From assembly GCF_038592905.1 (NCBI RefSeq), contig NZ_CP151943.1, forward strand, positions 4,972,501 through 5,036,500: a stretch of DNA of 64,000 nt, given 5' to 3'. Origin of the DNA: Neobacillus sp. FSL H8-0543. GTDB lineage: Bacteria; Bacillota; Bacilli; Bacillales; Cytobacillaceae. The notes under the pieces were generated by a model. The model searched no databases. It saw only the letters and a list, made by a program, of their open reading frames with translations, and was not told where the DNA came from. Positions 15,106-42,626 of this stretch are shown piece after piece; position 1 is the first letter of the stretch; each line of letters opens with the position of its first letter. The translations under genes and the position numbers were made by a program.

Positions 15106-15140
15106 CCGAGTATTGACCCCCATAGCCGAAATTTATCACC
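15106..15140. promoter_or_regulatory. Rhamnose operator A: two CCGA boxes 20 bp apart
   Basis: CCGAGTATTGACCCC starts at 15106 and CCGAAATTTATCACC at 15126. The CACC end (15137-15140) is followed 23 nt later by TATTCT (15164), a -10-like hexamer, and CTAAATGTA. There is no good -35, as expected for an activator-dependent promoter. Sites B, C and D share box spacing and CACC position exactly. Confidence 0.75.
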
Positions 15141-15196
15141 TTTTTACTTTTTGGGATAGTTTGTATTCTAAATGTATGGGTTTTATGTCTTATAAC

Positions 15197-15211
15197 TTGG
15201 AAGCGTATACA
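15197..15211. promoter_or_regulatory. cre-like site (CcpA), operator A unit
   Basis: TTGGAAGCGTATACA fits WTGNAANCGNWNNCW at every defined position. It lies in the early transcribed region of the isomerase-rhaM unit, a roadblock position for carbon catabolite repression. Confidence 0.75.
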
Positions 15212-15247
15212 TGTAATTGTTTTTGAGATTATGAAGGGGGTATTAAG

Positions 15248-16744
15248 ATGCTGGAGTCTATCAAACCAGTAAAAAAAGCCAGAGTGGGTTTATACACCAT
15301 TGGCCTACAGGCATATTGGAGTCAATTTCCGGGGTTAAAAGACAGATTAATCGAATACGGGAAATTTATCGAAACCAAAATGTCCCAGCATGGTGAAGTC
15401 TATAATTATGGGTTAGTAGATAGTGAAGCCGAAGCAAGACGTGCTGGGGAATGGTTCAACGAAAAGAATGTCGATCTTGTTTTTTGCCATTCCGGAACCT
15501 ATTCCACCAGCTCCGCCGTTCTTCCTGTTCATCAGATATGCAAGGCACCGGCTATTATTTTAAATCTTCAGCCAACAGAGCGGATCAATTACGAACAAAC
15601 CACCACGGGCGAATGGCTTGCGCATTGTGGAGCCTGCCCAACTCCGGAAATAGGCAATGCTTTTAACAGAAGTGGAATTAAATTCAGAGTAGTCAATGGT
15701 CTTTTGGGGTTGAATTATACACCCGAAATATCCTTAACAAATGAAAAATCAAGTGAGAGACCTGAAGCGATTCATGCTTGGAGCCAAATCAATGATTGGA
15801 TTCGGGCAGCCTCAGTTCCGCGGACGTTACGGCAAAGCCGCTTTGGATTTTTAGGAAATACATACAGCGGCATGCTGGATATGTACAGTGATTTTACGAT
15901 GATTCAAGCACAAACGGGTGTTCATATCGAAGTTCTTGAAATGTGTGATCTTGACCAGCTGCTGAAAGGGGTATCGGAGGCTGATGTAAAAAAGAAAATG
16001 GAGGAGGTCTATGAATTTTTCGAAATTAGTGGCGACTCTCCATCTGACCCCATTGCCCGGAAACCTACACTGGAACAATTGGAATGGTCGTGTAAAGTGG
16101 CATCTGCACAAGAGAAACTGGTAAAAGAATTTGACTTGGATGCGCTAACTTATTATTACCATGGTGCGCCTAATAGTGTTTATGAGAAACTGCAAGCCAG
16201 TTTTATCGTTGGCCACTCTCTGCTCACAGCAAAAGGTATCCCGTGCTCGGGGGAAGGCGATTTAAAAACAGCTATCGCCATGAAAATCTGTGACATTTTA
16301 GGGACAGGCGGCAGTTTTTCAGAAATTGTTGTAGTGGACTATATTGACGAAACGATTTTGTTAGGGCATGACGGCCCCTTTCATTTAGCGATTTCCGATG
16401 GAAAGCCGATCCTTCGGGGAATGGGATTGTACCATGGCAAGCAAGGTTCAGGTGTTTCCGTTGAAGCTAAGGTTAAAACCGGTCCCATCACAACACTGAA
16501 TGTCACCCAAACTGGTGATGGAAAGCTCAAGCTTATTATCAGTGAAGGCGTTTCAACGGATGGCCCGATTATGCGAATCGGAAATACCCAGACGCCAGTG
16601 AAGTTCAATGAGCACCCGGATCTCTATATGGAAAGATGGTTCCATGAAGCGCCGACTCATCACTGCGCCATGTCGATTGGAAACAATGCAGCTTTGTTTA
16701 GTAAAGCAGGGGAGCTATTGAATTGCAAAACTGTCACACTATAA
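15248..16744 (+). CDS. Sugar isomerase of the L-arabinose/L-fucose isomerase family
   Basis: 498 residues, cytoplasmic. The fold family is that of L-arabinose and L-fucose isomerases, which interconvert aldoses and ketoses with a divalent metal. Likely metal ligands and acid/base residues by position are Glu336 in SGEGDLKTA, an acidic residue in FSEIVVVDYID, His374 in LGHDGP and His471 or His472 in THHCAMSIGN. It is followed by rhaM with a 30-bp gap and controlled by rhamnose operator A plus a cre-like site. A canonical RhaA is encoded at 53621, so this could be a second isomerase for L-rhamnose, or for another sugar released with it (L-fucose, L-arabinose, L-lyxose). AAGGGGG precedes the ATG. 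Family assignment is firm, substrate is open. Confidence 0.82.
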   Translation: MLESIKPVKKARVGLYTIGLQAYWSQFPGLKDRLIEYGKFIETKMSQHGEVYNYGLVDSEAEARRAGEWFNEKNVDLVFCHSGTYSTSSAVLPVHQICKAPAIILNLQPTERINYEQTTTGEWLAHCGACPTPEIGNAFNRSGIKFRVVNGLLGLNYTPEISLTNEKSSERPEAIHAWSQINDWIRAASVPRTLRQSRFGFLGNTYSGMLDMYSDFTMIQAQTGVHIEVLEMCDLDQLLKGVSEADVKKKMEEVYEFFEISGDSPSDPIARKPTLEQLEWSCKVASAQEKLVKEFDLDALTYYYHGAPNSVYEKLQASFIVGHSLLTAKGIPCSGEGDLKTAIAMKICDILGTGGSFSEIVVVDYIDETILLGHDGPFHLAISDGKPILRGMGLYHGKQGSGVSVEAKVKTGPITTLNVTQTGDGKLKLIISEGVSTDGPIMRIGNTQTPVKFNEHPDLYMERWFHEAPTHHCAMSIGNNAALFSKAGELLNCKTVTL

Positions 16745-16774
16745 AAACGATTTATGATAAAGGAGGATTCTGTG

Positions 16775-17101
16775 ATGGAAAAAAGCAGCAAATACGCCTG
16801 GACATGGGAGATTAAAGAAGAGAAGCTCGAGGAATATATCGAGATGCATGTAAATCCATGGCCGGAAATCTTGGAGGAGCATCGTAAAGCAGGCATAAAA
16901 AATTACTCAATCTTTCAAAATGGAAACCAATTTTTTTACTGTTTTGAATGCGATGATGTGGATGCTGCGTTCGCGTATATTGCAAAAAGTGAAGCCTGTA
17001 ACCACTGGAACGCGATTACATCAAAAATGGTAAAGGGGTCCTTTAACTTCATTGAACCAGAACCCATTAAGCCTCTTCATGAAGTATTCTATTTAAAATA
17101 A
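16775..17101 (+). CDS. rhaM: L-rhamnose mutarotase
   Basis: 108 residues from the ATG at 16775, with AAAGGAGG 9-10 nt upstream. It matches the RhaM family (PF05336): a basic start, then EEYIEMHVNPWPEILEEHRK and NYSIFQNGNQFFYCFE, and a late CNHWNAITSKMV. His and Trp in the MHVNPWPE region correspond to the active-site positions of the family. RhaM interconverts alpha and beta L-rhamnose so that the isomerase gets the anomer it uses. Co-transcribed with the isomerase upstream and followed by a hairpin at 17109. Confidence 0.9.
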   Translation: MEKSSKYAWTWEIKEEKLEEYIEMHVNPWPEILEEHRKAGIKNYSIFQNGNQFFYCFECDDVDAAFAYIAKSEACNHWNAITSKMVKGSFNFIEPEPIKPLHEVFYLK

Positions 17102-17108
17102 TGAACGC

Positions 17109-17142
17109 AAGGAGGCAGGATAAATGGCTGCCTCCTTATTCT
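17109..17142 (+). terminator. Hairpin after rhaM
   Basis: AAGGAGGCAG (17109-17118) and CTGCCTCCTT (17128-17137) form a 10-bp stem, then ATTCT. The stem is strong but the T tract is weak. Confidence 0.6.
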
Positions 17143-17187
17143 AACAGTCAAATTAATCATGATGGTATAACCCATATATTTCAACTT

Positions 17188-17222
17188 CCGAAGTTTATCC
17201 CCCTTATCCGAGGATTACCACC
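17188..17222. promoter_or_regulatory. Rhamnose operator B
   Basis: CCGAAGTTTATCCCC starts at 17188 and CCGAGGATTACCACC at 17208, a 20-bp period as at sites A, C and D. TAAAAT (17245) starts 22 nt after CACC and GATAAT (17251) 28 nt after it. It controls the rhamnosidase gene at 17534 through a leader of about 280 nt, which also holds a cre-like site and a GGTGTCAGGCACC repeat near 17500. Confidence 0.72.
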
Positions 17223-17310
17223 TTTCCAATAGTTGAAAACATTATAAAATGATAATTATATGGTTATTCTCTGTTACTTCCCTAAGATATTTCCTTTCTT
17301 ACACATAAAT

Positions 17311-17325
17311 TTGAAAACGCTACCA
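17311..17325. promoter_or_regulatory. cre-like site (CcpA), operator B unit
   Basis: TTGAAAACGCTACCA fits WTGNAANCGNWNNCW at every defined position. It lies in the leader of the first rhamnosidase gene. Confidence 0.65.
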
Positions 17326-17533
17326 TCACGCCTCTACTATCCTATCTTTTCATTAGATTTGTCCTATTGTAATTACATCCAGTTTTACTGGTTTGTAAAA
17401 ATCCACTATAAAAGGAGGTTGTGTAAATCCCTAAAAATAACAATTGGCACAACAAAGGTTTCATGAAGAAAAAACATCGTGTCTGATGATTCATGAAAAA
17501 GGTGTCAGGCACCAAAAAGAGAAGGAGTGGACC

Positions 17534-20500
17534 ATGGTAAAGAGAAAAAAGGTATTACCCTGCTTTTCGATTCTTATCATCCTTTTGGGGCTTTTAATTC
17601 CAGTCAATCATGTGCCTGAAAACAAAGTGTTCGCGAGTGAGGCAGAAAATAACGCGGGGGAGAGCAGTTGGAAGGACCAATGGATCAACAACGATTGGAA
17701 AGCAAAATGGATATGGGACTCTGAGAAAAGCAATCCGAATACATGGATGATTTTTCGGAAAAGCTTGGAAATTGATCGTGTTCCCAAGAAAGCCATCACA
17801 AAAATAGCTGTAGATTCGAAATACTGGCTTTGGATAAACGGTCAGCTTGTTGTCTTTGAAGGCGGCTTAAAACGAGGACCCAGCCCAGAAGACACTTATT
17901 ACGACGAAGTAGATATTGCTCCATATTTAAACAGCGGAAACAACACAATTGCTGTCTTGGCTCAGTATTGGGGCAAGGATGGTTTTTCTCATAAAAGCAG
18001 CGGGAAAGCAGGTTTTATTTTCGAATCAAGTATAAATGGCGGTCTGATTATCAGTGACAATACCTGGAAGGTAAAACAGCATTCTGCTTATAAGAATCAT
18101 CCGGATAACCCTAATTACCGATTGTCTGAAAGCCACGTCTATTTTGACGCCCGAGTGGAGTTAGGACAATGGTACTTAAATGAATTTAATGACTCGGAGT
18201 GGGGGAAGGCGGTTGAACTTGGCGGAGTACCTTCAGAGCCCTGGAACAATCTATGGAAAAGGCCCATCCCATTATGGAAAGACTTTGGCTTAAAGGATTT
18301 TGTCAATAACGAATCATTTCCTAAAGTCAGTGACGGAACCGTTTTAAAGGCAAGGCTTCCATATAATGCCCAGTTCACCCCATACCTCAAGGTGAAGGCC
18401 ACTGCAGGCAAAGTAATTGAGATGATTCCGGATAGCTACTATGTCCCAAATGGCCCTGCTATTAAAGCTTCCTATGTGACAAAAGAGGGAATTCAAGAAT
18501 ATGAATCATTTGGCTGGTTTAACGGACAAGAGGTTAGCTTCCATATTCCTGAAGGGGTAGAAATACTTTCGCTCCAATTTCGTGAAACCGGCTATAAAAC
18601 AGAATTTGCAGGCTCGTTTTCATCGAATGATGAATTTTACAATAAGTTGTGGGAAAAATCCTTACGCACCCTCTACATTACAATGAGGGATAACTATATG
18701 GATACTCCTGACCGTGAACGTGCGCAATGGTGGGGCGATGCTGTGAATGAAATGGAAATGGCCTTTTATTCACTTGACCCCAAATCCTATTTGCTTGGGG
18801 AAAAAGGTATAAGCAATGTCGTTGAATGGAGATCGCCTGAAGGTGCCTACCCAACCATCTCTCCATATGGTTTAAATTTCTTTGAATTGCCGGCGCAGGC
18901 CATGGCTGGAGTAACATCGTTCTGGACTCATTACGAGTATACCGGAAACAAAGAGTTAATGGAATATGTGTACCCTAGTGTAAAACAATACTTAGGTTTA
19001 TATGAATTTGATGGAGAGGGAGTCGTTATTCATAGACCCGGAACCTGGGATTGGAGCGATTGGGGATCAAACATAGACCAACGTCTGATCACAAATGCCT
19101 GGTACTATATTTCCCTCCAAAGTGCCGTCAATCTTGCGAAACTGACCGGTAATGAAGAGGACGTTCCAGGCTATGAGCTTAAGATGGCTATGATACAACG
19201 GAATTTTGACCGTGTTTTCTGGAATGGCAATGAATACAGATCCCCGAATTATACGGGCAAAACAGATGACCGCGGCAACGCTCTAGCTGTAATAGCCGGC
19301 TTAGTCGATCAATCCCAATATGCTAAAGTAAAAAATGTGTTGGGCAAGCAGTTTCATGCAAGCCCATATATGGAGAAATATGTACTGGAAGCATTATTTG
19401 AAATGGGTTATGAACAAGATGCACTGACGCGGATGAAATCCAGATATACCAATATGGTAAGGGAACCGTATTCAACATTATGGGAATTCTGGGATACCGG
19501 AAGCGGAACGAAGAATCACGCCTGGTCGGGCGGTCCATTAACCCTTCTATCAAAATATGTAGCAGGGGTTTCACCCATCGAACCGGGATATGAAAAGTAT
19601 CAAATCATCCCTCAACTTGGAAATTTGAATGATGTAAATGCCGTTGTCCCTACTTTAAAGGGGGATATAGGTGTAGGCATCAAAAAAACAGCTGATACTG
19701 AAATTGTAATGACAGTTAATTCCCCTGGGGATACCGAAGCTAGAATTGGCATTCCGAGATACGGAGAGTCCAACACAATCATTTATGCCGGAGATCAAGT
19801 AGTTTGGGAGGATGGCAGATTTACTGGGGAAGTGACAGGACTTAAATATTACTCCAATGATTCCAACTATATTTATGTAACTGCTGCTCCTGGAACCTGG
19901 AATTTCTCCTCAAAAGTAAAGCAGCCGGATCCGAACGCGTCCCAATTCTTACTATCCATTGACCGAGCCGAAGGCGGGAAGGTAAAGGTAGACGGAGAAG
20001 AAGTGGCCATACCATTGAAAAAGACGTTTGCAAAAGGTACAGAAGTGAAGCTTGAGGCTGTCCCTGACCAGAACAAAACATTTGTCCATTGGGATGGCAG
20101 TATTGCTAATACATCCAACCCGCTTACGGTAACCATGGATAGTGCGAAAACTATCAATGCCAACTTTACCGCAGTTAAAGAAGAAGCATACACCGAATTG
20201 GTGATTCATAACGAACCTGACTTCAGCGGTGTCATCAAAGTCGATGATGAAATTTTCAACTTGCCGTACAGAGGATTATTTGAAAAAGGAAAGAACGCAA
20301 CGCTTGAAGCGATCTCAAAAGACGGGATGCAATATCAATTTTCCCATTGGAATAACGATCCTAACAATACAAAGAATCCTTTATCCGTCACATTGGATAA
20401 AGATGTGGAATTGACCGCAAACTTCAAAGATTTAATGCCAAATTTGGCGCTTCATAAGCAAGTAAATACAGTTAGAAGTCTAGAAGCCGGCAAAACTTGG

Positions 20501-22042
20501 AGCAAGAATAACCTGACAGATGGCCTGACCGCAGTTTCGGGTGGTGTGAACGGTTTTACAACGGATGTCTTCCCATCTACAGACATTAGTAAAGACCCGC
20601 ATTGGATTGAAATTGACTTGGGACAAAACATGGATATTAATACCCTGCGGCTTTATCCAAGGACAGATGCTTTTGCGAGGGATCAGCAAACACCTAACTT
20701 TCCGGTTGATTTTACTATTGACGTCAAACCTGAAAACGGACAGTTTTCCACTGTGAAAGAGGTCAAGAATCAGCCCAATCCTAAAGGGAAGGTCCAAACC
20801 TATGAGTTTGAGACCCAAACTGCAAGATTTATCAGGGTTAAAACTACGAAACTTGGCCTTCCTGCTATTGATGAGGGGTTTCAAAATGCCTTCCGTATCC
20901 AATTGGCGGAAATATCGGTACACAAGCAATTACCGAACCTGGCCTTTAACAAGCAAGCAAAAACCAATAACAGTCTGGAAAGTTTGCCTTCGTGGTCGGT
21001 GAACAACTTGACCGATGGACAAAAGGAGTCGAATGTTGCTGTTAAAGGTTTTACAACAGATACCTATCCATCCCGTGATGTCAGCAGCAATCCACATTGG
21101 ATTGAAATCGATTTAGGGAAAGAGCAATACCTCAATTTAATACGGTTATTCCCAAGAACGGACGCGTTTGCCCTGAACGAATTGACCGCAAACTTCCCTG
21201 TCGATTTTAAAATCCAATTGAAGGGTGAAACTGGGGACTATCAGACTGTTAAAGAGGTGGAAGGTCAGGAAAATCCAAAAGGAATCGTGCAATCCTATGA
21301 GTTTGAAAGACAAAATGCGAGATATATCAGAATTCAAACGACCAAACTCGGGCTTCCTGCTGCAGATGAAGGGATTTCGAATCCTTTCCGTATCCAATTA
21401 GCAGAAATCAGTGTCCACTACGTGGACCAGACACCACCAACAACAACACTTTCTGTTGACAAGCTGGAGATAAATGGATGGTTCCAATCTGATGTGAAAG
21501 TTACACTTTCTGCCGAGGATGATGCAACAACCGTTACGAAAATAGAATACCAAATTAATAATGGCGATTGGCATGAGTATAAGGAGCCTGTCACTTTCAC
21601 GGAGGAAGGGAAGCATACATTCAACTATCGAAGCGTTGACAAAGAAGGGAATGTAGAGGAAGTCAAAACGAAGAGTGTCAATATCGATAAATCAAAACCC
21701 CAGCTGGAAATTAAGTTGGATAAAACCGTATTATCGCCGCCAAACCACATGCTCATTCCAATCAATTTAACCATTCAAGCCAAGGATGATGTTTCAGGTA
21801 TATCATCAGTGAAGTTAATTTCTGTTACTAGCAATGAACCTGACAATGGTTTAGGTGATGGTGATACAGATAAGGATATCCAAGAAGCAGAATATGGCAC
21901 AGAAGATACTGCCTTTAGTCTTCGCGCCGAACGTTCCGGTAAAGGAAGCGGAAGAGTCTATACCATTACCTACAAAGCAATCGACCAAGCCGGCAATGAG
22001 ACAACCGTAACAGGCGAGGTACTCGTACCTAAATCAAACTGA
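17534..22042 (+). CDS. Secreted GH78-type alpha-L-rhamnosidase, multidomain
   Basis: 1502 residues from the ATG at 17534 (GAAGGAG 8 nt upstream; an in-frame start at 17444 has none). Signal peptide: MVKRKKVL, a hydrophobic run, then VFASEA. The six-hairpin catalytic region carries DTPDRERAQWWGDAV near residue 390, the variant of the GH78 RDERxGWTGD motif that keeps the acidic residue, and LWEFWDTGS near 650 (Glu651, likely second catalytic acid). Then come two InlB-B-like repeats (about 800-965, each ending in ANF), two F5/8 type C domains (about 967-1130 and 1132-1300) with HWIEIDLG cores, and Ig-like domains to the end. There is no LPXTG or SLH anchor. It probably binds polysaccharide through the C-type domains. 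First gene under operator B; the next rhamnosidase follows after 77 bp. Confidence 0.82.
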   Translation: MVKRKKVLPCFSILIILLGLLIPVNHVPENKVFASEAENNAGESSWKDQWINNDWKAKWIWDSEKSNPNTWMIFRKSLEIDRVPKKAITKIAVDSKYWLWINGQLVVFEGGLKRGPSPEDTYYDEVDIAPYLNSGNNTIAVLAQYWGKDGFSHKSSGKAGFIFESSINGGLIISDNTWKVKQHSAYKNHPDNPNYRLSESHVYFDARVELGQWYLNEFNDSEWGKAVELGGVPSEPWNNLWKRPIPLWKDFGLKDFVNNESFPKVSDGTVLKARLPYNAQFTPYLKVKATAGKVIEMIPDSYYVPNGPAIKASYVTKEGIQEYESFGWFNGQEVSFHIPEGVEILSLQFRETGYKTEFAGSFSSNDEFYNKLWEKSLRTLYITMRDNYMDTPDRERAQWWGDAVNEMEMAFYSLDPKSYLLGEKGISNVVEWRSPEGAYPTISPYGLNFFELPAQAMAGVTSFWTHYEYTGNKELMEYVYPSVKQYLGLYEFDGEGVVIHRPGTWDWSDWGSNIDQRLITNAWYYISLQSAVNLAKLTGNEEDVPGYELKMAMIQRNFDRVFWNGNEYRSPNYTGKTDDRGNALAVIAGLVDQSQYAKVKNVLGKQFHASPYMEKYVLEALFEMGYEQDALTRMKSRYTNMVREPYSTLWEFWDTGSGTKNHAWSGGPLTLLSKYVAGVSPIEPGYEKYQIIPQLGNLNDVNAVVPTLKGDIGVGIKKTADTEIVMTVNSPGDTEARIGIPRYGESNTIIYAGDQVVWEDGRFTGEVTGLKYYSNDSNYIYVTAAPGTWNFSSKVKQPDPNASQFLLSIDRAEGGKVKVDGEEVAIPLKKTFAKGTEVKLEAVPDQNKTFVHWDGSIANTSNPLTVTMDSAKTINANFTAVKEEAYTELVIHNEPDFSGVIKVDDEIFNLPYRGLFEKGKNATLEAISKDGMQYQFSHWNNDPNNTKNPLSVTLDKDVELTANFKDLMPNLALHKQVNTVRSLEAGKTWSKNNLTDGLTAVSGGVNGFTTDVFPSTDISKDPHWIEIDLGQNMDINTLRLYPRTDAFARDQQTPNFPVDFTIDVKPENGQFSTVKEVKNQPNPKGKVQTYEFETQTARFIRVKTTKLGLPAIDEGFQNAFRIQLAEISVHKQLPNLAFNKQAKTNNSLESLPSWSVNNLTDGQKESNVAVKGFTTDTYPSRDVSSNPHWIEIDLGKEQYLNLIRLFPRTDAFALNELTANFPVDFKIQLKGETGDYQTVKEVEGQENPKGIVQSYEFERQNARYIRIQTTKLGLPAADEGISNPFRIQLAEISVHYVDQTPPTTTLSVDKLEINGWFQSDVKVTLSAEDDATTVTKIEYQINNGDWHEYKEPVTFTEEGKHTFNYRSVDKEGNVEEVKTKSVNIDKSKPQLEIKLDKTVLSPPNHMLIPINLTIQAKDDVSGISSVKLISVTSNEPDNGLGDGDTDKDIQEAEYGTEDTAFSLRAERSGKGSGRVYTITYKAIDQAGNETTVTGEVLVPKSN

Positions 22043-22060
22043 TGACCAAATTCTCCATTG

Positions 22061-22088: not shown

Positions 22089-22119
22089 ACATTCTTAAAA
22101 AGTTGGAAAGGGTGAAACG

Positions 22120-25100
22120 ATGAAAACTATCATTCGGCAATACCTCCTTTTGATTTTAGTTGCTTTACTGATTATTCCGCCGTTCTCAACAACAGCGGCT
22201 AATCAGGAGGAAATAAAGTCAGCAGAAATTCAAGTAGGCCAAACCACCACCGAGTATTCGGAAAATCCGCTGGGCATTGATGTGAAAAAGCCAATGCTCA
22301 GCTGGACCCTTGAATCCGCTGAACGCGGACAAAAGCAATCAGCTTATCATGTTCTTGTTGCTTCAAGTTTGGAAAAACTTAACAATAACCAAGGTGATAT
22401 TTGGGATACGGGCAAAGTGGAATCTGATCAATCTATTAATATCGCATATGGCGGGAAAGGTTTAGAATCAGCCAAACGATATTACTGGAAAGTCCGCGTT
22501 TGGGATAAAAATGATAAAGCATCCTCTTGGAGCAGTCCTTCCTGGTGGGAAATGGGGCTTCTTAATCAAGATGATTGGAAAGCAAAATGGATCAATAGCA
22601 AGGGAGCTTCTTCCATTAATAATCCAAACCAAAATTATCCTGCACGATTAGAGAATGACCGCACGCTTGGCCAAACCTTTACAATGGAGTCTAGCTTTAA
22701 AACAGTTGCCGGCAGATTCCCTACCTGGAACACGGTAGGTGCGGACATGACGTTAACCCTTTACAAGGATGGACCAAATGGTGAAGTCCTTCAACGAAAA
22801 CAAATACTCGATGTTGTCGACAATGATTGGGTTTCCCTGGAATTTGAGAAGGAACTTCCAGCCGGAACCTATTATTTTGAAGCATCGGCACCTGTAGGGA
22901 TCATTGGCTGGTGGAGCCATTCAGGAGATATGTTAAAGGGAGGGCAGGCCTATGCAGATGGCAAACCAGTCAACGGCGACAGAACTCTTCAAGTCGGCAA
23001 GCCGTCGGAAAACACTCCAGCCTCCTACCTGCGCAATGAATTTACAATCGAGAAAGAGGTAAAACAGGCACGGCTTTATTCCACTGCCCTTGGAATCTAT
23101 GAGCCGCACCTAAATGGAAAGCATGTTGGAAAAGATCTATTCGCCCCGGGATGGACGGACTACAAAGACCGGGTTCAATATCAAACCTATGATGTAACCA
23201 AACTATTAAAAGAAGGAAAAAATGCTCTGGGTGCTATATTAGGCGACGGATGGTACTCCGGATACCTTGCGCATCTTCCGCCTGATGTTTACGGCAGCAC
23301 CACTTCTTTATTGATGCAATTGGAAATTGAATATAATGATGGATCTACTGAGAGCGTCGTAACGGACAACTCGTGGAAAATAGCTGAAGGACCAATCGTC
23401 TCTCAAGACATGTTAATGGGAGAAACATTTGATGCCAGACTGGAAATGCCAGGATGGGACCAACCGGGGTTTGAGGATGCCAATTGGTCTTCGGTTAAAA
23501 TGAGAAGTGACGAGGTTACTGCAAAGCTTGTCGCTCAAAGTGACCCTCCCGTACAAGTCATTGAGGAAATCAAGCCGGTCAAAATGACTGAGCCAAAACC
23601 GGGAGTCTATATCTTTGATTTAGGCCAAAACATGGTTGGTGACGTTCGGCTAAAAGTTCAAGGGGAAGCAGGAACAAAGGTTACCTTAAGACATGGAGAG
23701 GTGCTGAATCCTGATGGAACGCTTTATACTGGAAATCTCCGTTCCGCCAAAGCGACAGACTACTATATTTTAAAAGGTGATGGGGAAGAAGTTTACGAAC
23801 CTACCTTTACTTTCCATGGCTTTAGGTACGTCGAAGTAGCCGGTTATCCTGGTACTCCAACACTTGAGTCCATTACGGGAAGAGTCATGCACTCCGCCAT
23901 GCCTTTTACCGGAACATTTGAAACTTCAAATCCTATGATTAATCAGCTGCAAAGTAATATTATGTGGGGCCAGCGCGGGAATTTCTTAAGCATCCCGACT
24001 GACACACCTGCACGTGACGAGCGGATGGGCTGGACCGGTGATATCAACGTCTTTGTCGATACTTCCACTTTTAATATGAACGTGGCTACCTTCTTGGGAA
24101 CAAAATGGCTCCAAGACCTGCGTGATGCCCAATTTGCTGACGGTGCGTTTCCAAATGTCGCGCCTGATATATGCTGCGGCGGCGGAGCGGCAGGTTGGGG
24201 AGATGCCGGAATTACGGTTCCATACGCCATTTGGCAGCGGTATGGCGACACTCGAGTAATTGAGGAAAATTATACGCCAATGACGCGCTGGATTGATTAT
24301 TTAAAGAAACACAGCAGTAGCCACATCCGTCCGGCAGAAGGATTTGGGGACTGGTTGAATGTTAACGATGAAACCCCTAAAGATGTCATAGCCACAGCCT
24401 ATTATGCATACAGTACCAAGCTGCTGGCGGAAATGGCCAAGGCGATTGGGAAAGATCAGGACGCACAGAAGTACCAAAATCTCGCAAATGAAATTAAAGC
24501 AGCCTTTAATAAAGCTTTTGTCAACGAAGATGGAAAGGTAAAGGGTGACACGCAGACAGCTTATGTCTTAGCACTTTATATGGATTTACTACCTGCTGAA
24601 AAACAAAAAGCTGCTTCCGATAGGCTTGTGCAGTTAATTGAAAGCCGTGATTGGCATTTATCCACAGGCTTCCTTGGCACACGCGATCTGCTGCCAGTAT
24701 TAACGAAGTCAGGCCATCTTGATGTGGCGTATCGCTTGCTCAATAATGATACGTACCCATCATGGGGCTATCAAATCAAAAATGGTGCAACCACGATGTG
24801 GGAGCATTGGGGCTCGTTAAGACCGGATGGCACTTTTTCAGATCCAAGCATGAATTCCTTCAATCACTATGCCTATGGTGCAGTAGGAAATTGGATGTAT
24901 CAAAACATTGCCGGATTAAAGCCTGATGGGGCTAAACCTGGTTTTAAGCATTTCTTTATTGAACCGCAGCCAGGCGGCGGCTTGACAAGTGCGAAGGCCG
25001 ATTATGATTCGGTTTATGGCAAGATCGTCAGTGAGTGGGAAATCAAAGGTGATGTGTTCAACCTTCACGTAAAGATTCCTGTCAATACCACTGCAACAGT

Positions 25101-26881: not shown

Positions 26882-26916
26882 CCGAAAATCGTCCCCCTTA
26901 ACCGAAAAATATCACC
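26882..26916. promoter_or_regulatory. Rhamnose operator C
   Basis: CCGAAAATCGTCCCC starts at 26882 and CCGAAAAATATCACC at 26902. CACC (26913-26916) is followed after exactly 23 nt by TAATCT (26940) and then CTATATGTA, parallel to sites A and D. It drives rhaS copy 1 and probably the rhamnosidase gene at 28289. Confidence 0.75.
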
Positions 26917-26961
26917 TTTCCCCGTTTACTAAATATCAGTAATCTATATGTAACCGCATAG

Positions 26962-26976
26962 CAGGAAACGCTTACA
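26962..26976. promoter_or_regulatory. cre-like site (CcpA), operator C unit
   Basis: CAGGAAACGCTTACA matches WTGNAANCGNWNNCW except at its first two bases. It is placed just downstream of the inferred promoter, as in units A, B and D. Confidence 0.55.
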
Positions 26977-27138
26977 ACGTGCGTTTTATAGGTTATAAGA
27001 ACCACAATAGTTACATTTACAGTCAGCGGCGGGAAATGGGTTCGTGCACACCAAACGTCGGATGAGGAGCCATTTTTTGATACTAAGCAGGCTCGTCCTG
27101 TTTTGTATAAGAAACAAAAAAACAAAGGGGAGAAAAAA

Positions 27139-31200: not shown

Positions 31201-33028
31201 GATTGATGAGTGGTTTTATAGTCATCTTGCCGGTATCAAGCCAGACAGTCCTGGATATAAGGAATTCACCATCCGGCCATTTCCTTCTTTTAACAAGGAT
31301 ACCCAAACTGGCTTAACACATGCTAAGGCAGATTATGATTCGCCTTATGGAAAAATAAGCAGTCAATGGTCGGTGAGTGACAATAATAATCTAACATTAG
31401 GTATTTCCGTTCCAGTAAATACAACTGCCAAGGTATATTTGCCTGTTGGAAGTAAATGGGCAGTCTTTGAGGGAACTAAAGTCGCTCATGAGGCAGAAGG
31501 AATCGAATTTCTCAAGATTGAAGATGGTAACGCCGTTTATTCAGTAGGATCTGGAACCTATCAATTCGTGGTCTACCCAGAACTGGAACTATTGGGTAAC
31601 GGTTACGACGAAGCAGTTGAATTATCAAATAAGCTTAACCGTTGGAAGGAAGATGAAAGTATCAATGGGGGGCACACAGGTTATCTTGCTTCACAGGTAA
31701 ATAAGCTGGAAAAACAAATTAATGACAGTATGAAAATCTTTTTAACTGATGATAAAAAAGGGCTATTACAAACCATTCAGCATGCATTAAAAACGAATTC
31801 ACAACTTTCAGATTGGATTAACAATAAACAGAAATCACTTCCAGTTGATGTAGTAGACCTAGTAACCAAGTCGCTTGATACGATTTCTACAAATCTCTCA
31901 AAAGTAAGCAGCTACTATTTAAACATTGAACCAAAATTAACCTTATCTAAAACTGAGGTGTTCCCTGGGGAGAGCTTCCAGGTAAAAGCCGAGATAAGCA
32001 ACACCAGTAATGAAAATCTTAATGATGTACATGCTGCTTTAGAAGTACCAGAAGGGTGGAGTGTTACAGATAAGGGTGGGACGAAAGCCCCTGTTCTCAA
32101 AAGAGGAGAAACATTCGCTGCAACATTTAATGTTACGGTTGCCAAAGGTCAAGCACCTATAAAGGATGCAAAACTTGCGGGGATAGTAAGCTACAAAAAA
32201 ATGGGTGGAACAGCTACTACTAAGACAACGGCCGCGGTTCATATTAATTCGCCTATTACTATTGCTTCTGTAGAAACAAGTTCGGATCAGGTGCATTTAG
32301 GGGAGGTGATCTCCATTGAGGTTATTGTTGAAAACAAAGCTGCAGTGAAAGTGGATGGACAAGTAGAGCTTTATTTAACGAATATTGAGGGTTCTGCTCC
32401 GTTAACTCAATCAGTTCAGTTAGATGCAGACGCTTCGAAGAAAGTAACATTTGAGATCGATACTTACAAATTCAACAAATTAACCCTCCAGCTTGGAGTA
32501 GTTGCAAAGTACGAAGGTAATAATTCAGATGAAAGAAATGTAATCATTAATCTTTCAGTGCCTGGAACAAACCTTGCCCTCAATAAATCAGTATCTGCGT
32601 CCAGCAGCATCGATGCATGGGGGTGGGGACTAAAGCTCGCAGTCGATGGTCAAAGAGGAAGTACTGGCAGTTCGATGGGTTGGACGACAAATGACAAAAC
32701 CAATGTTAATCATACAGAGTGGATTACCGTTGACTTAAAAGAACAGCAAACGATTAATACGGTTGTTTTATATCCACGAAATGATGCAGATGCCGGCTTT
32801 GGTTTCCCAATTGATTTTACAATTCAAGTATCGAATGATAATACAAATTGGAAAACTGTCGTTACCGAAACCAACTATCCTTTCCCAGGAGCAGAAGCGC
32901 AAATGTTCTCGTTCGAAGTACAGGAGGCACGCTATGTAAGGATACACGGTACGAATTTAAGGCCTAACCCAAATGATGGTAACCTTTATAGAATGCAATT
33001 AGCGGAAATTGAGATATACAACCATTAA
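28289..33028 (+). CDS. Secreted GH78 alpha-L-rhamnosidase with CARDB-like and F5/8 C domains
   Basis: 1579 residues. A signal peptide (MQKSFSIFLSVML ... VPVAA) precedes the same Ig-like N-domain as the protein at 22120 (TEYAENPLGIDVKEPRLSW). Lectin-like beta domains include AEYRYFKRDFEI and PLLRKHFSAEKDIKSARVYV. The catalytic motif is TDTPIYEKNGWTGDA: Glu677 is kept, but the usual Arg-Asp before it is Ile-Tyr. LYEHWD supplies the second acid, Glu955. Two CARDB/NEW3-like domains follow (about 1210-1430), then an F5/8 type C domain (NLALNKSVSASSS ... ISLEIYN-type end, about 1430-1579). GGGAGG lies 12 nt before this ATG and only 5 nt before an out-of-frame ATG at 28282. Sequence variation at the motif suggests a substrate range different from its neighbour. 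Confidence 0.88.
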   Translation: MQKSFSIFLSVMLVIAMLMPTAVPVAANDEKAEFDGIEVMKSTTEYAENPLGIDVKEPRLSWELDSNERGQKQTAYEVMVSTGLDKLNDENGDMWETGKIASDQSINIEYGGKQLQSGKRYYWKVRVWDNDGQVSSWSKPAWWEMGFLNESDWSANWIGKGKKVAGSSINLGDSYWIWYPEGDPTVQAPAEYRYFKRDFEISSIDDVTNAQWALTADDQYELYVNGDLIVKTEGVVDEWKQGEIYDLTDFLASGKNSIAVKVLNKSVSPAGLLGKLRINYASGESDILLTDDKWKSAKIADGEWQSVNYDISGWSNAKQIAKYGSGPWGSNVVLSEGNMPAPLLRKHFSAEKDIKSARVYVSGLGYYELHLNGNKVGDRVLDPGHTDYDRTVLYSTFDVTDQLVKGDNAIGVELGRGWYGMTTPSVWFWERAPFHDEPKLLLQLEIIYADGTKKTVVTDDTWKVTDGPTLFDSVYAGETYDARQEKAGWAKAGFNDSSWNQAAKVEPPKGKLKPFQHEPIKITETIKPISVKEPKEGVYVFDFGKNVAGWTRLHVKGQRGTEVTLTYGEKLYQDGTVNMSQGDIIGQIQQDHYILSGEDNETWAPKFSYKGYQYVQVTGFPGEPTLDNLEGYIIHTDVANNGIFSSSNSLINQIHDNTRRALLSNLYSKPTDTPIYEKNGWTGDAQIMAVSAIYNFNMPRFYTKWMNDFLDAQKPSGEIPDIIPTSGWSYDGSEGWTAVHGPTPDWDFAYFEIPWDMYHYYGDERFLGEMYDGWKKYFAYLSSYATNNIVSVGLGDWLPAPGGGGDTSLTSTAYYYKMADIIAQAAKIMGLEYDFELYNQKAQAINQSFNNTFFDQKERIYKARAGISYKQTSNLMPLALDLVPDEAKEDVAASIVKDIKARDGHLATGIIGTKFLLPVLTEYGFGDVAYQLATQTSYPSWGNWIVNGGATSLYEHWDLGSRSRNHHMFGSIDEWFYSHLAGIKPDSPGYKEFTIRPFPSFNKDTQTGLTHAKADYDSPYGKISSQWSVSDNNNLTLGISVPVNTTAKVYLPVGSKWAVFEGTKVAHEAEGIEFLKIEDGNAVYSVGSGTYQFVVYPELELLGNGYDEAVELSNKLNRWKEDESINGGHTGYLASQVNKLEKQINDSMKIFLTDDKKGLLQTIQHALKTNSQLSDWINNKQKSLPVDVVDLVTKSLDTISTNLSKVSSYYLNIEPKLTLSKTEVFPGESFQVKAEISNTSNENLNDVHAALEVPEGWSVTDKGGTKAPVLKRGETFAATFNVTVAKGQAPIKDAKLAGIVSYKKMGGTATTKTTAAVHINSPITIASVETSSDQVHLGEVISIEVIVENKAAVKVDGQVELYLTNIEGSAPLTQSVQLDADASKKVTFEIDTYKFNKLTLQLGVVAKYEGNNSDERNVIINLSVPGTNLALNKSVSASSSIDAWGWGLKLAVDGQRGSTGSSMGWTTNDKTNVNHTEWITVDLKEQQTINTVVLYPRNDADAGFGFPIDFTIQVSNDNTNWKTVVTETNYPFPGAEAQMFSFEVQEARYVRIHGTNLRPNPNDGNLYRMQLAEIEIYNH

Positions 33029-36128: not shown

Positions 36129-36130
36129 TG

Positions 36131-36166: not shown

Positions 36167-36297
36167 GATTGTGCCCGTACAAATTTTTATCCGTCGTCAT
36201 AATCAATAGCAAATGATAAGCTGGTTTTTGCGGGGTTTCTTTGAAAATAAAAAAATAACTGCAAAGCAAATAAAAACGGGAATTGAATATTTTCGTA

Positions 36298-36326
36298 TTC
36301 AAAAATAAACAAAAATATATTATAAT
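36298..36326 (+). promoter_or_regulatory. rhaEW promoter with overlapping DeoR-type operator
   Basis: TTCAAA (36298) and TATAAT (36321) are separated by 17 bp. The spacer is filled by CAAAAATAAACAAAA (36300-36314), which recurs exactly at 55927-55941 before rhaD. A site between -35 and -10 fits a repressor. Confidence 0.65.
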
Positions 36327-36365
36327 AAAACAGAAGTTAACAAACATTTAAACGGGGGGTTTCGG

Positions 36366-38435: not shown

Positions 38436-38491
38436 TGAGTGTTATGGGAAAACCGCTGCAAGAAGTATTATATTTGAAATAGGAACCGATG

Positions 38492-38524
38492 AAAAAAGGC
38501 ATCAAGGAATGCCTTTTTTCTTTT
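38492..38524 (+). terminator. Intrinsic terminator after rhaEW
   Basis: AAAAAAGGCAT and ATGCCTTTTTT form an 11-bp stem around CAAGGA. Confidence 0.85.
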
Positions 38525-38631
38525 TAATAAGACGAATAGCCCAAAAATATGTTAAAATAATTGAAAAGTGCGAATTTTTAATCAGTATCACTTTACATAT
38601 GGTTCTTATAGTAAAATGGAGGGGACGGAGG

Positions 38632-39666
38632 ATGGGTAGAAGATGTACTAGCTTATTCACCTTACTGTTACTTATTCTTGCAAGCGGTTGCAGTACAACC
38701 GCAAAATATGACATTGTCTATTCTAAAGGTGAAGTAGACCGCCCGGTTGAGAACTATACAAGGAAGTCGTACACCATTGCACTTGTCCCGAAGCTTGTAA
38801 ATATTCCCTATTTTAATGCTGTTGAAGAGGGGGCTATGGAGGCGGGGGAAGAACTAGGGGTAAATGTGATTTATAGAGGTCCTGCTGTTGCTGACCCCAA
38901 TCAGCAAGTCAAAATAATCGAAGAATTAATACAACAAAAGGTAGATGTGATTGCCGTTTCTGCGAATGATCCTGAAAAATTGGTTGCAGTGATGAAGAAG
39001 GCACAAAGCCAAAATATTAAAGTCATTACCTGGGATGCTGATACACATTTTGATTCCAGGGAGTTTTTTATCAATATGGTGGATCCTGAGAAATTGGGCA
39101 GACATTTAATGGATACTCTAGCTTGGAATGTAAATGAAGAGGGAGATTTTGCGATTATTACTGGTGCGGAATCAGCAGCGAATCTAAATGTCTGGCTAAA
39201 TTGGATAAAAATTCAACAAAGGGAATATTATCCGAAAATGAACTTGGTTAAGGTAGTAGCCTCAAATGATGATCCTCATAAGGCCTATATTCTGGCAAAA
39301 GAACTTTTGGCCGGCTATCCAAATTTAAAGGGGATTATCGGTAATTCCTCCGTTGGTCCGCCTGCTGCCGCCCAAGCAGTGAAAGAAGAAGGGAAATCAG
39401 GTGAGGTCACTGTTGTTGGCTTATCTCCGCCGAATCCAATGAATGAATACCTAAAAACTGATGCTGCACAGGTGGTTACTTTATGGAGCCCAAAAAAGCT
39501 TGGGTTTTTAACGGTAGCACTTGCAAAAAACCTTCTTGATGGAATGAAACCGTCTGATCGTCAAGAAATCCCGCAAGTTGGAAAAATTAGAGTTAAGGAC
39601 GACATAGTTATTATGGGAGAACCAATTGATTTTACAAAGGAAAATGTGGACCAGTATGATTTTTAG
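38632..39666 (+). CDS. RhaS-like sugar-binding lipoprotein, probable co-sensor of the kinase
   Basis: 344 residues from the ATG at 38632 (GGAGGGG 7 nt upstream; longer readings start far upstream across the terminator). The lipobox ILASGC anchors it outside the membrane. The fold is that of a type I sugar-binding protein, clearly related to RhaS: QQKVDVIAVSANDPEKLVAVMKKA, FINMVDPEKLGRHLM, GYPNLKGIIGNSSVGPPAA. It has no ABC genes of its own; its end overlaps the histidine kinase gene and they are followed by the response regulator. This order fits a binding protein that hands sugar information to a YesM-type sensor. I infer that it detects L-rhamnose or a rhamnose oligosaccharide. Confidence 0.85.
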   Translation: MGRRCTSLFTLLLLILASGCSTTAKYDIVYSKGEVDRPVENYTRKSYTIALVPKLVNIPYFNAVEEGAMEAGEELGVNVIYRGPAVADPNQQVKIIEELIQQKVDVIAVSANDPEKLVAVMKKAQSQNIKVITWDADTHFDSREFFINMVDPEKLGRHLMDTLAWNVNEEGDFAIITGAESAANLNVWLNWIKIQQREYYPKMNLVKVVASNDDPHKAYILAKELLAGYPNLKGIIGNSSVGPPAAAQAVKEEGKSGEVTVVGLSPPNPMNEYLKTDAAQVVTLWSPKKLGFLTVALAKNLLDGMKPSDRQEIPQVGKIRVKDDIVIMGEPIDFTKENVDQYDF

Positions 39667-41482
39667 ATGGAAAAAATTCAAGAATTTCAGACTGATGACC
39701 AAATTAATCGTTTCGTATTTTTTCATTACGGTCATTCCTTTGGCTTTGTTGGGTTATTTTGCCTATGCCCAATATTCAAAATCAATCGAAGAACAAGTTG
39801 GTGAAAATATACCAAAATTGCTGGACCAAGCAAATGAACGAATCGGCATCTATATCCGGGATTTAAAACAGCTGCCGTACCTCCTGTATAATTCTGCACA
39901 AGTGATTGAAGTGTTAAGGAAGGACTCCTACCAAAGCAATTCATCCTTGCTGCAGGATACATTTATTGTTAATAGTTATCTGGCTAAAACATATAGCAAT
40001 GGGGGAAATCCGGACATTTTAGGAGTTTTTATTTTATCAAAGAACAGGTTGTATGAAAGTTCGAAGGTCCCATATACCGGTTTCGAGAGCATTGAATTGC
40101 CATATGGCCAAGATATGGAGTTAAACGGTAAACAGGCCATCATTTATCCTTCCCATACGAATCTCAAATTTAAAAATAACCCGCCTTATATTTTGTTGAT
40201 GCACCAAATTACCGATACAGAAAACCGGCAGAACTTGGGCACGATGTTTATTGTTGTGGAGATGTCATCATTTCAACAGATTATCGAAAATATTAAGGTA
40301 AATGATCAATCGGAGCTCTCGCTTATGAATGAGTATGGGTACATAATCTACCATACAAATCCTGATCTTATTGGAAAATTAAATAAGGAATTAGTAGATT
40401 ATCCTAATATAAATGGAAGCTTTCGAACCACAACAATAGAGGATAACAGGTTAATTAGTATTAGCAGAAACGGCCCGGATGAATGGATTCTGGAGCATAG
40501 CGTCCCTTTGAAGAATTTGACTGAAAGAACGGATGTAGTACGAAATACTACGATTATCGTATTTATCATAGTCGTCATTTTAAGTACAATTATTTCGATT
40601 TTCCTTGCATGGAATGTAGCACGGCCTATGAACCGTCTAACCAGATTAATGAAGCGGGTTGAAAAAGGGGATTTTGATGTAGACCTTACCATTAACACTA
40701 CGGATGAGGTCGGTATTCTTGCCAATAGTTTCAATTCAATGGTACTCGAGATTCGAGAATTGATTAAAATAAACTATCAAATCAAATTGCAGCAAAAGGA
40801 AGCCGAACTGTATGCGCTTCAGTCTCAAATCAATCCACATTTTATGTACAATACCCTTGAAACAATCGGAATGGCAGTCGAGGAAGGAGAAGATGACACG
40901 GTAGTAGAAATGGTGTCCATCCTCGGTAGAATGTTACGTTTCTCCATTAATAATAAAGATAAGGTGGTCACTGTTAATCAAGAAGTCCAGCATATGAAGG
41001 ATTATTTGACAATTCAAAAAATAAGATTTGAAGAGCGAATTGATTTTTATATCCAAGAAGAAGTAAACAGCCAGTCTTTTCTGACTCCCAAGTTTATCTT
41101 ACAGCCCATTGTTGAGAATGCAATAAAACATGGTCTTGACCACCAGCAGCATTTTAAGCTCGAAATCCTGATCAAAAAAGCACCTAACAAAGAAGAATTG
41201 ATATTTAAGGTAATTGATAACGGTCCCGGAATTCCGGAAGAATTGTTGGAGGAGCTTAATTGGTACTTGGCATCTGATCCAATGGGGCGAAGGGACTCGA
41301 AATTTGGTTTAATCAATGTTCATGGAAGAATCGTCATGATGTATGGACAACCGTTTGGTCTTCAACTAGATAGTAAGATTAAACAAGGGACAGAAGTGAC
41401 AATAAAAATCCCTTTATTGACAGTTGACATTGCAGAAAGGTCAGTGAGTGGAGGTGGGACGATTGAGTACAAGACTGGTTAA
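39656..41482 (+). CDS. YesM-type sensor histidine kinase
   Basis: 608 residues from the ATG at 39656, which overlaps the upstream stop; the start is uncertain because the ribosome site is weak and other ATG codons lie at 39626 and 39695. Two membrane helices (about residues 17-38 and 290-315) flank an extracytoplasmic dCache-like sensor domain. A HAMP segment follows (NRLTRLMKRVEKGDFDVDL), then the His_kinase domain with QSQINPHFMYNTLE (phospho-acceptor His395) and HATPase_c (ILQPIVENAIKHG, DNGPGIP, FGLINVHGR). This is the lytS/yesM class that pairs with AraC-type regulators. Partner genes are immediately upstream and downstream. Confidence 0.92.
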   Translation: MIFRWKKFKNFRLMTKLIVSYFFITVIPLALLGYFAYAQYSKSIEEQVGENIPKLLDQANERIGIYIRDLKQLPYLLYNSAQVIEVLRKDSYQSNSSLLQDTFIVNSYLAKTYSNGGNPDILGVFILSKNRLYESSKVPYTGFESIELPYGQDMELNGKQAIIYPSHTNLKFKNNPPYILLMHQITDTENRQNLGTMFIVVEMSSFQQIIENIKVNDQSELSLMNEYGYIIYHTNPDLIGKLNKELVDYPNINGSFRTTTIEDNRLISISRNGPDEWILEHSVPLKNLTERTDVVRNTTIIVFIIVVILSTIISIFLAWNVARPMNRLTRLMKRVEKGDFDVDLTINTTDEVGILANSFNSMVLEIRELIKINYQIKLQQKEAELYALQSQINPHFMYNTLETIGMAVEEGEDDTVVEMVSILGRMLRFSINNKDKVVTVNQEVQHMKDYLTIQKIRFEERIDFYIQEEVNSQSFLTPKFILQPIVENAIKHGLDHQQHFKLEILIKKAPNKEELIFKVIDNGPGIPEELLEELNWYLASDPMGRRDSKFGLINVHGRIVMMYGQPFGLQLDSKIKQGTEVTIKIPLLTVDIAERSVSGGGTIEYKTG

Positions 41483-42545
41483 AACAGTGGTGGTTGATGA
41501 TGAAGCACGGATTCGAAGGGGGATTGAACGGTTGGTCACGTCGTGCTCCGACGAATTTCATGTTATTGGAGGCTTTTCCAGCGGGAACGAATTACTAGCC
41601 TTTTATCACCAAGAAAAGCTGGAATTTGATCTGTTAATTACAGATATTAGAATGCCTGGCATGGATGGATTGGAATTAATAAAGGAACTAAAGAACCATG
41701 TTTCATTTGAAGCGGTAGTCATTAGCGGCTTTAATGATTTTAAATACCTGCAATCAGCCATTCGTGAAGGGGCTGTTGATTATATGGTTAAGCCGATTAT
41801 TCGGGAGGAATTTCGCCTGCAGCTCCACCGTGTTAAGGAAAAAATTTATCGTAAACGGTCGGAAGAAGAGCGTCTTTTAAAGCTGGATTTAGAGTTTTTG
41901 CATGTGAAACAGATAGAAGGCATCATACAATCCATGCAGCAGGCGAAAATAGAAGAAACATTATCTCTTTTACATCAGTTTCTGAATGTACTTGAGAATC
42001 ACACGTCTCCCGGGGAAATTGAACGGAACATTCAATCACTTGCTGTTCAGATTGTAAACCTTTTTGGGAAAAATTCATATGCGAATAATGAATCAGATTT
42101 CCTGTATGATGCTATAAATATGACAAAAAGAGCAAGGAATTTTAAAGTATTAAGGCATGGCCTCAATGAATGGATACAAAAAGTTTATTTATCTTTAAAC
42201 AAATTAATGAACCCTGTGAAAGTGGATCCGATTCAAACAGCAAAGCAGTGGATATTGAGCAATATGGCTGAAAATATAACAATTGAAAAGATTGCACGGG
42301 AAATTCCGATGAATCCAACCTATTTTAGCGAGTACTTTAAAAATCAAACAGGTGAAACCGTATTGGATTTTGTGACAAGAACCAGGATCGAAAAAGCAAG
42401 GGAATTGCTGTTCTCAACTGATTTAAAAGTTTATAATATCGCGGAAAAGGTAGGTTATACCGATACTAAATACTTTAGCAAACTTTTCAAGAAGTATTTT
42501 GGAGAGGTCCCTTCCAAGTATAAGGAGAAAATCAAATATGGCTGA
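41463..42545 (+). CDS. YesN-type response regulator with AraC DNA-binding domain
   Basis: 360 residues from TTG 41463, about 5 nt after GGAGGTGGG and inside the end of the kinase gene; a GTG at 41448 precedes the ribosome site and is less likely. The receiver domain has DDEA (12-15), phospho-acceptor Asp61 in LLITDIRMPGMDG and the VKPI lysine. A middle helical region is followed by an AraC/XylS double helix-turn-helix (about 260-358: ITIEKIAREIPMNPTYFSEYF, then YNIAEKVGYTDTKYFSKLFKK). Such regulators bind two direct repeats on one DNA face. The nearest unexplained sites are the four CCGA box pairs in this locus, one of them directly downstream at 42592. I infer it activates transport and rhamnosidase genes when L-rhamnose is sensed. 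Confidence 0.92.
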   Translation: MSTRLVKTVVVDDEARIRRGIERLVTSCSDEFHVIGGFSSGNELLAFYHQEKLEFDLLITDIRMPGMDGLELIKELKNHVSFEAVVISGFNDFKYLQSAIREGAVDYMVKPIIREEFRLQLHRVKEKIYRKRSEEERLLKLDLEFLHVKQIEGIIQSMQQAKIEETLSLLHQFLNVLENHTSPGEIERNIQSLAVQIVNLFGKNSYANNESDFLYDAINMTKRARNFKVLRHGLNEWIQKVYLSLNKLMNPVKVDPIQTAKQWILSNMAENITIEKIAREIPMNPTYFSEYFKNQTGETVLDFVTRTRIEKARELLFSTDLKVYNIAEKVGYTDTKYFSKLFKKYFGEVPSKYKEKIKYG

Positions 42546-42550
42546 CATCC

Positions 42551-42580
42551 AAACCTCCATTCCGGAGGTTTTTTAAATTT
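42551..42580 (+). terminator. Intrinsic terminator after the response regulator
   Basis: AAACCTCC and GGAGGTTT form an 8-bp stem followed by TTTTAAATTTTTT. Confidence 0.85.
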
Positions 42581-42591
42581 TTTGAAAACTC

Positions 42592-42626
42592 CCGAAAATC
42601 GTCACCCCAATCCGAGATCTGTCACC
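42592..42626. promoter_or_regulatory. Rhamnose operator D
   Basis: CCGAAAATCGTCACC starts at 42592 and CCGAGATCTGTCACC at 42612. CACC ends at 42626, and TATGCT (42650) starts 23 nt later, followed by CTAAATGTA. The two boxes end in the same GTCACC, making this the clearest direct repeat of the four sites. It controls rhaTPQS. Confidence 0.78.

Follow-up and report, generated by a model that had tools for sequence, protein, structure and literature searches.

Tandem sites in a rhamnose gene cluster

The stretch analysed here (the window) comprises 64,000 nucleotides of Neobacillus sp. FSL H8-0543, whose whole genome is a single contig of 5,295,870 bases. It contains a rhamnose cluster in which the genes of a sugar-binding lipoprotein, a histidine kinase and an AraC-type response regulator adjoin, as in three-component sugar systems. 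Four intergenic sites in the cluster, here called A to D, carry two CCGA boxes in tandem. The features are listed in Table 1. We propose that these paired boxes are very probably the operator of the response regulator.

The sites share the layout CCGA-N16-CCGA-N7-CACC, which a pattern search of the window places at four positions, all on the + strand, in full agreement with a preliminary description made from the sequence. Across the whole genome the pattern occurs exactly four times, all in the rhamnose cluster and identical to sites A to D; the expectation by chance from base composition is about 0.17, and the reversed control gives no match. The longer pattern CCGAN3TN3CNCCN5CCGAN7CACCTTT, allowing up to three mismatches, still finds just these four sites in the genome, with one match for its control. 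When CACC is not required, the window holds a fifth match, at 19734, which lies within a reading frame and lacks CACC. The likeness extends beyond the boxes, in that sites C and D share the starting stretch CCGAAAATCGTC.

The genes that follow are those expected of a rhamnose regulon, with differing degrees of certainty. Two GH78-type rhamnosidase genes behind B, and rhaS1 with a third behind C, are as originally described. The isomerase and rhaM assigned to site A are less secure: the family match of the isomerase is weak, and the rhaM-like protein scores below its cut-off. As to rhaTPQS behind site D, rhaS2 lies above its cut-off, while rhaT, rhaP and rhaQ are named by context, the NCBIfam scores of rhaT being below the cut-offs. 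A fourth rhamnosidase gene follows rhaS2. Between C and D lie lutABC-like genes and rhaEW, and then the sensor set.

Table 1. Positions of the predicted sites, promoter elements and genes in the window
Feature	Position	Strand	Basis or context
Site A, predicted tandem operator	15106..15140	+	before sugar-isomerase-like and rhaM-like genes
Site B, predicted tandem operator	17188..17222	+	before two GH78-type rhamnosidase genes
Site C, predicted tandem operator	26882..26916	+	before rhaS1 and GH78-type rhamnosidase gene
Site D, predicted tandem operator	42592..42626	+	between response regulator gene and rhaTPQS
-10-like TATTCT, site A	15164..15169	+	23 nt after CACC
-10-like TAAAAT, site B	17245..17250	+	22 nt after CACC
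-10-like TAATCT, site C	26940..26945	+	23 nt after CACC
-10-like TATGCT, site D	42650..42655	+	23 nt after CACC
cre match TTGGAAGCGTATACA, after site A	15197..15211	+	perfect match to consensus
cre match TTGAAAACGCTACCA, after site B	17311..17325	+	perfect match to consensus
cre match TTGTAAGCGTTTCCT, after site C	26963..26977	-	perfect match to consensus
cre match ATGTAAACGTATACA, site D	42658..42672	+	perfect match to consensus
Terminator-like hairpin before site A	15005..15030	+	hairpin scan
Terminator-like hairpin, regulator gene to site D	42551..42571	+	hairpin scan
RhaS-like sugar-binding lipoprotein, sensor component	38632..39666	+	lipobox LASGC, 344 residues
Sensor histidine kinase, LytS/YesM type	39626..41482	+	dCache_1, HAMP, His_kinase
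AraC-type response regulator, proposed binder of A to D	41448..42545	+	receiver and HTH_18, 365 residues
Sugar-isomerase-like protein	15248..16744	+	weak AraA_central match; behind A
Rhamnose-mutarotase-like (rhaM-like) protein	16754..17101	+	TIGR02625, below cut-off; behind A
GH78-type alpha-L-rhamnosidase	17444..22042	+	behind B, first
GH78-type alpha-L-rhamnosidase	22120..26652	+	behind B, second
rhaS1, binding protein of rhamnose ATP-binding cassette (ABC) transporter	27103..28182	+	TIGR02637, 384 bits, cut-off 342; behind C
GH78-type alpha-L-rhamnosidase (third)	28289..33028	+	behind C
rhaT-like sugar ABC ATPase	42744..44288	+	by context, NCBIfam matches below cut-offs; behind D
rhaP-like permease	44303..45310	+	by context; behind D
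rhaQ-like permease	45313..46323	+	by context; behind D
rhaS2, rhamnose-binding protein	46404..47450	+	TIGR02637, 381 bits, cut-off 342; behind D

Promoter geometry

The -10-like elements lie where they had been placed, their distance from CACC being 22 nt at B and 23 nt at the other three sites. The spacing was examined in 34 distinct sites from the window and its relatives, including the diverged classes (CTGA and non-GA) described below. Offsets from 8 to 44 were scanned, and an element was accepted if it had at least four matches to TATAAT, including A at position 2 and T at position 6. At offset 23 after the second CNCC, 24 of the 34 sites pass; no other offset is passed by more than 6. 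The mean match to TATAAT also peaks there, at 4.18 of 6. The stretch at the expected -35 position is poor (TTTnnn or TAnnnn in most sites), which would fit an activator-dependent promoter. The sites thus have the form of an AraC-type operator, namely a direct tandem repeat of about two helical turns, with a period of 20 bp, upstream of the -10.

Sites A and D directly follow terminator-like hairpins; the same scan found none adjoining B and C. Such hairpins are not enriched overall relative to shuffled sequence (12 compared with 18.3, and 16 compared with 16.1).

The motif in other genomes

A first search of 151 genomes of the family, allowing up to two mismatches, gave 14 matches (four of them in the host genome itself) against 3 in the controls, and from these the relaxed pattern CCGARN5WCMCCN5CCGARN5YCNCCTTT was set. 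Scanned exactly against the GTDB species collection (84,980 genomes, from which short contigs and records near the host genome may be absent), it has 12 matches on 11 contigs, belonging to Neobacillus, Robertmurraya, Mesobacillus and Bacillus sp.; our own arithmetic gives an expectation of about 1 at equal base frequencies. All 12 stand before rhamnose transport or rhamnosidase genes: ten before rhaT, one before a GH78-like rhamnosidase (28–34% identical to those of the window) and one before a GH106 rhamnosidase. Half were already known when the pattern was set (L019, L023, L025, two in L026, and L028). The six new ones (L020, L021, L022, L024, L027 and L029) all lie before rhaT and after a regulator gene.

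In 193 genomes of the family, one mismatch being allowed, there are 16 matches outside the host genome and none in the controls, a set that overlaps with the previous one. Eleven precede rhaT, two a GH78-like gene and two a GH106 gene; the last, in genome G129, is without a fitting gene. Two GH106 rhamnosidase genes that lie on other contigs than the sensor genes follow sites first picked out by the motif alone, one exact (L043) and one with a single mismatch (L039). The G129 match (L007/L052) falls in a CCGAGAGT repeat of three copies; over the 2.2 kb that follow, no open reading frame of at least 100 codons starts on the same strand, and the match was rejected as due to chance or to the repeat.

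Presence of the site follows presence of the sensor. All 13 of these genomes with a sensor of at least 65% identity (the host included) have the site, as does 1 of the other 180, namely G129; the 65% line was drawn after the list was seen, and relatedness makes the counts non-independent. In the genome with the next sensor (G043, 63%) the contig ends 30 nt past the regulator gene, so that the position of the site lies beyond the edge.

Genome scans and gene context, together with the co-divergence of box and recognition helix set out next, thus support the original proposal of a rhamnose regulon and of an operator bound, as we infer, by the AraC-type response regulator. The three-component nature of the sensor, the cre-type box at each promoter and the relatives with altered boxes are additions to that proposal.

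Co-variation of box and recognition helix

Thirty sets of sensor, kinase and regulator genes were compared, the window's included. A site was defined as CNCC...CNCC, 20 bp apart, and was sought by pattern within 500 nt after the regulator stop; the best-scoring match was taken, the score favouring an upstream box that starts with C and ends in A. In 27 of the 30 sets a tandem site with 20-bp spacing stands no more than 520 nt past the regulator gene; 25 were found by the pattern, one (L053) by matrix and one (L051) by eye, the last two each with one altered CNCC. For L038 and L044 no tandem site was found because the contigs end; in G010, the genome of L038, another contig carries a site right at its edge, ahead of rhaT.

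The diverged systems retain the 20-bp repeat and the -10 at 23 nt, while the CCGA box varies with the first recognition helix of the regulator. Fifteen regulators have the helix NPTYF(C/S)E, with 11 sites of the form CCGA-CCGA, one CAGA-CCGA and three CCGA-CTGA. A fourth CCGA-CTGA site belongs to L068, whose helix is NPTYLCE. The helix NPNYFCD goes with CTGA-CTGA in 6 of 6 cases, and the single NPNYFCE regulator has mixed boxes. With SPTYFS(H/A/V), GA is absent from the box in 4 of 4.

A structure search matched the DNA-binding fragment of the regulator to MarA and other AraC-family proteins, of which the MarA register alone was used. The fragment aligns to MarA (1bl0) over residues 13–110 of both, with no net gap, and the residues linked to the box correspond to MarA 40, 42, 45 and 46. 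According to the accessible text of PMC3315485, the base contacts of MarA are made by Trp42, Gln45 and Arg46.

On these grounds, the family of rhamnose-type three-component systems may embody a natural recognition code, in which CNCC and the geometry are fixed and the CCGA box (CCGA, CTGA, or non-GA variants such as CTTA and CGTT) changes together with the helix residues at MarA positions 40, 42, 45 and 46. We put the chances of this at about even. The helix does not completely determine the box, since four systems with NPTYF/L-CE helices have one CTGA half. Moreover, a tree built from the rest of the regulator requires 5 changes of box class in total; this implies few independent events, so that the co-variation follows a few clades. 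Both points weigh against the proposed pairing of regulator and box, as do those gathered below.

The genes served also vary. Among five CTGA or non-GA systems whose first genes were examined, L045, L048 and L065 begin, in place of ABC genes, with a rhaM-like gene (above the cut-off in L045 and L065, the two tested) followed by a major-facilitator-like transporter, and L046 and L062 start with such a transporter, these transporters being recognised by eye. The first gene of L064 encodes a ribulose-phosphate-type epimerase, which that of L047 resembles by eye, and that of L051 a hexuloisomerase. These varied first genes suggest that sensors of this family act on genes for rhamnose and, it may be, for further sugars.

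The sensor set

The gene order of the sensor set is retained in relatives. The open frame of the lipoprotein (38410–39666) overshoots the true start, most relatives aligning from residue 64–85, and the ATG at 38632, preceded by a GGAGG box, was therefore chosen. Its lipobox, recognised by reading alone, predicts an exported and anchored binding protein, distinct from the products of rhaS1 and rhaS2. The best NCBIfam match is the rhamnose-binding family TIGR02637, below the cut-off (286 compared with 342 bits). Among solved structures the best matches are rhamnose-binding 4kvf (3e-45) and LsrB-type 1tjy (9e-44; PDB name 'sugar transport protein'), with named LsrB entries that bind autoinducer-2 (AI-2) ranking just below. 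The sole solved-structure match of the kinase is 6swj. The regulator has the double helix-turn-helix of the AraC type (PF12833 and PF00165), and its domains match 6swi and 6swl highly.

The window holds two complete rhamnose-binding genes, rhaS1 and rhaS2; the stretches of relatives that were examined show one, beside rhaTPQ. The isomerase-like gene adjoins the rhaM-like gene although there is a clear rhaA at 53621–54874. This rhaA belongs to a second rhamnose block, at 52172–56871, which consists of rhaB, rhaA, a gene for a DeoR-family regulator and rhaD. A matrix scan of the window found no tandem site ahead of the block, so that two layers of control are likely.

cre-type boxes

CcpA acts at cre boxes (catabolite-responsive elements, consensus WTGNAANCGNWNNCW) as a glucose-dependent override. 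Counting both strands, the window has 5 perfect matches to this consensus; a first-order random model gives a mean of 1.2 and a maximum of 4 in 60 trials. Four of the five fall no more than 138 bases after a site start, one for each of A to D. At D the match begins 2 nt past the -10 and overlaps the expected start site, an offset shared by many relatives. At A, B and C a separate perfect match starts 81 to 123 bases into the site. The preliminary description had noted a CTAAATGTA-like stretch after the -10. This holds at D, where it is the start of the perfect cre, and at C as a version with two mismatches; at A there is a poor version, and at B it is absent.

In a list of 23 sites, 13 have a cre without mismatches at offset 66–68 and 3 more have one with a single mismatch, the other 7 being without. 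In the wider set of 34, with the CTGA and non-GA classes, 14 have a cre with at most one mismatch at this offset.

The fifth perfect match (38678–38692) falls where the signal sequence of the sensor lipoprotein is encoded and may be there by chance. Four CTGA-type promoters (L062, L065, L066 and L067) have a TAAGCGNTTT-like stretch (AAAGCGTTTT in L066) between operator and -10, which is perhaps a shifted cre box.

Proposed mechanism and alternatives

We hypothesise that the regulator at 41448–42545 has its operator in the paired boxes and is activated by rhamnose through the three-component sensor, subject to an override by CcpA; on the sequence comparisons described here, we consider this highly probable. 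Extracellular rhamnose or a rhamnoside would be bound by the RhaS-like lipoprotein, and the loaded lipoprotein would engage the Cache-domain histidine kinase, which would in turn phosphorylate the regulator. Each CCGA-N7-CNCC unit would be the site for one AraC-type DNA-binding domain, with CCGA read by its first helix-turn-helix and CNCC, a helical turn further on, by its second. Two units 20 bp apart would then hold a tandem dimer of phosphorylated regulator against the weak -35 region, from where it may recruit RNA polymerase, by class II activation, to the -10 element that follows after 23 nt. In the presence of glucose, CcpA bound to a cre over or just past the start site would shut the promoters.

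Several further observations weigh against this proposal. Rhamnose is no more than a probable ligand, as LsrB-type (AI-2-binding) structures nearly equal the rhamnose-binding match and the sensor lies below the RhaS cut-off. The window regulator lacks about 160 to 190 middle residues, between receiver and DNA-binding domain, that are present in 21 aligned relatives (the open frame of the nearest, L061, has 547 residues), and it is not certain that the shortened protein is active, although the four intact sites suggest that it still works. No site scoring at least 12 on the matrix precedes the sensor, kinase and regulator genes, so that autoregulation is not seen, and the pattern search found no tandem site downstream of the regulator gene in L069. 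In G038 (sensor 65%) the pattern marks a GH106 gene alone, the rhaT site being weaker, with CAGA in its first half. Finally, at sites A to C the fixed offset holds no cre with fewer than two mismatches.

A different regulator might bind sites A to D, most plausibly the RhaR-like DeoR-family protein at 55072–55839, acting as a repressor. It adjoins rhaB, rhaA and rhaD, and the accessible text of PMC3870299 describes DeoR-type RhaR proteins as controlling rhamnose genes in several groups, with predicted sites that are direct repeats. The same text gives DeoR sites a periodicity of 10–11 bp and AraC-type sites one of 21 bp, however, and the repeat here is 20 bp, unlike the DeoR form. Sites A to D also sit upstream of the -10 and not over it, and the matrix scan of the window shows no site ahead of rhaB. 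In L045, L048 and L050, moreover, where a DeoR protein 66–68% identical stands beside rhaB, rhaA and rhaD, it is the altered helix of the response regulator that accompanies the altered boxes. We therefore regard DeoR binding as improbable.

The idea that a single promoter was recently duplicated to give all four sites, alike from copying and not from selection, draws on the start shared by C and D. The stretches between boxes and -10 differ among all four sites, however, and identical boxes are kept across genera and at unlinked rhamnosidase genes, which makes this quite improbable. We give least credence of all, next to none, to a role of the repeats as RNA or DNA structure, such as a leader element or attenuator. 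They are intergenic, and two of them follow hairpins, though these are no commoner than in shuffled sequence; but because the -10 follows them at a constant distance of 23 nt, they would fall outside transcripts from these promoters, and binding by a protein fits both their spacing, which equals two helical turns, and the co-variation of box and recognition helix.

Relation to known systems

The operator and sensor set proposed here resemble several known systems in part. AraPST of Geobacillus stearothermophilus, which we take to consist of a lipoprotein, a kinase and an AraC-type response regulator for arabinose, has the same three-part make-up as the sensor set. The entries 6swj, 6swi and 6swl are presumably from AraPST, although the molecule names in the matches do not say so. 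The likeness is one of gene make-up, and the sugar differs: the binding protein here is nearest to the rhamnose family TIGR02637 (RhaS), below its cut-off, and rhamnose genes are served.

In CuaDSR of Ruminiclostridium cellulolyticum and XylFII-LytS of Clostridium beijerinckii, a solute-binding protein, a kinase and a regulator likewise induce transporter genes, for cellobiose and xylose in place of rhamnose (PMC10384115, accessible text); this text does not contain the terms 'binding site' or 'direct repeat'. The RhgR proteins, AraC-family rhamnose regulators of Bacillales, have predicted direct-repeat sites with 21-bp periodicity; the comparison is one of periodicity, and 'two-component' and 'response regulator' are absent from the accessible text (PMC3870299). 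Tandem repeats that precede promoter elements were interpreted as activator sites for 3 of 5 two-component systems with AraC-type regulators in Caldicellulosiruptor bescii, whereas rhamnose genes were assigned to DeoR-family regulators (PMC8579813, accessible text).

Among the papers listed by literature searches that cover few subscription journals, there is no account of a rhamnose three-component system, its operator or the variation of box and helix, and none that joins Neobacillus and rhamnose with a rhamnosidase and a regulator. The three-part arrangement, as in AraPST-like systems, and this kind of operator are already known; what appears to be new is a form for rhamnose, with its own operator and with variation of box and helix among relatives.

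With these sites, a three-component system that probably senses rhamnose gains a concrete predicted operator, and its promoters seem to join activation by rhamnose with an override by glucose. Sequence alone suffices to predict the regulon, two unlinked GH106 rhamnosidase genes having been singled out by the motif. G162 and G164 each hold both a CCGA-type and a CTGA-type system, and the change of box may keep two such sister systems apart in one cell. Through such natural variation in box and helix, the rules by which AraC-type response regulators read DNA become open to experimental test.

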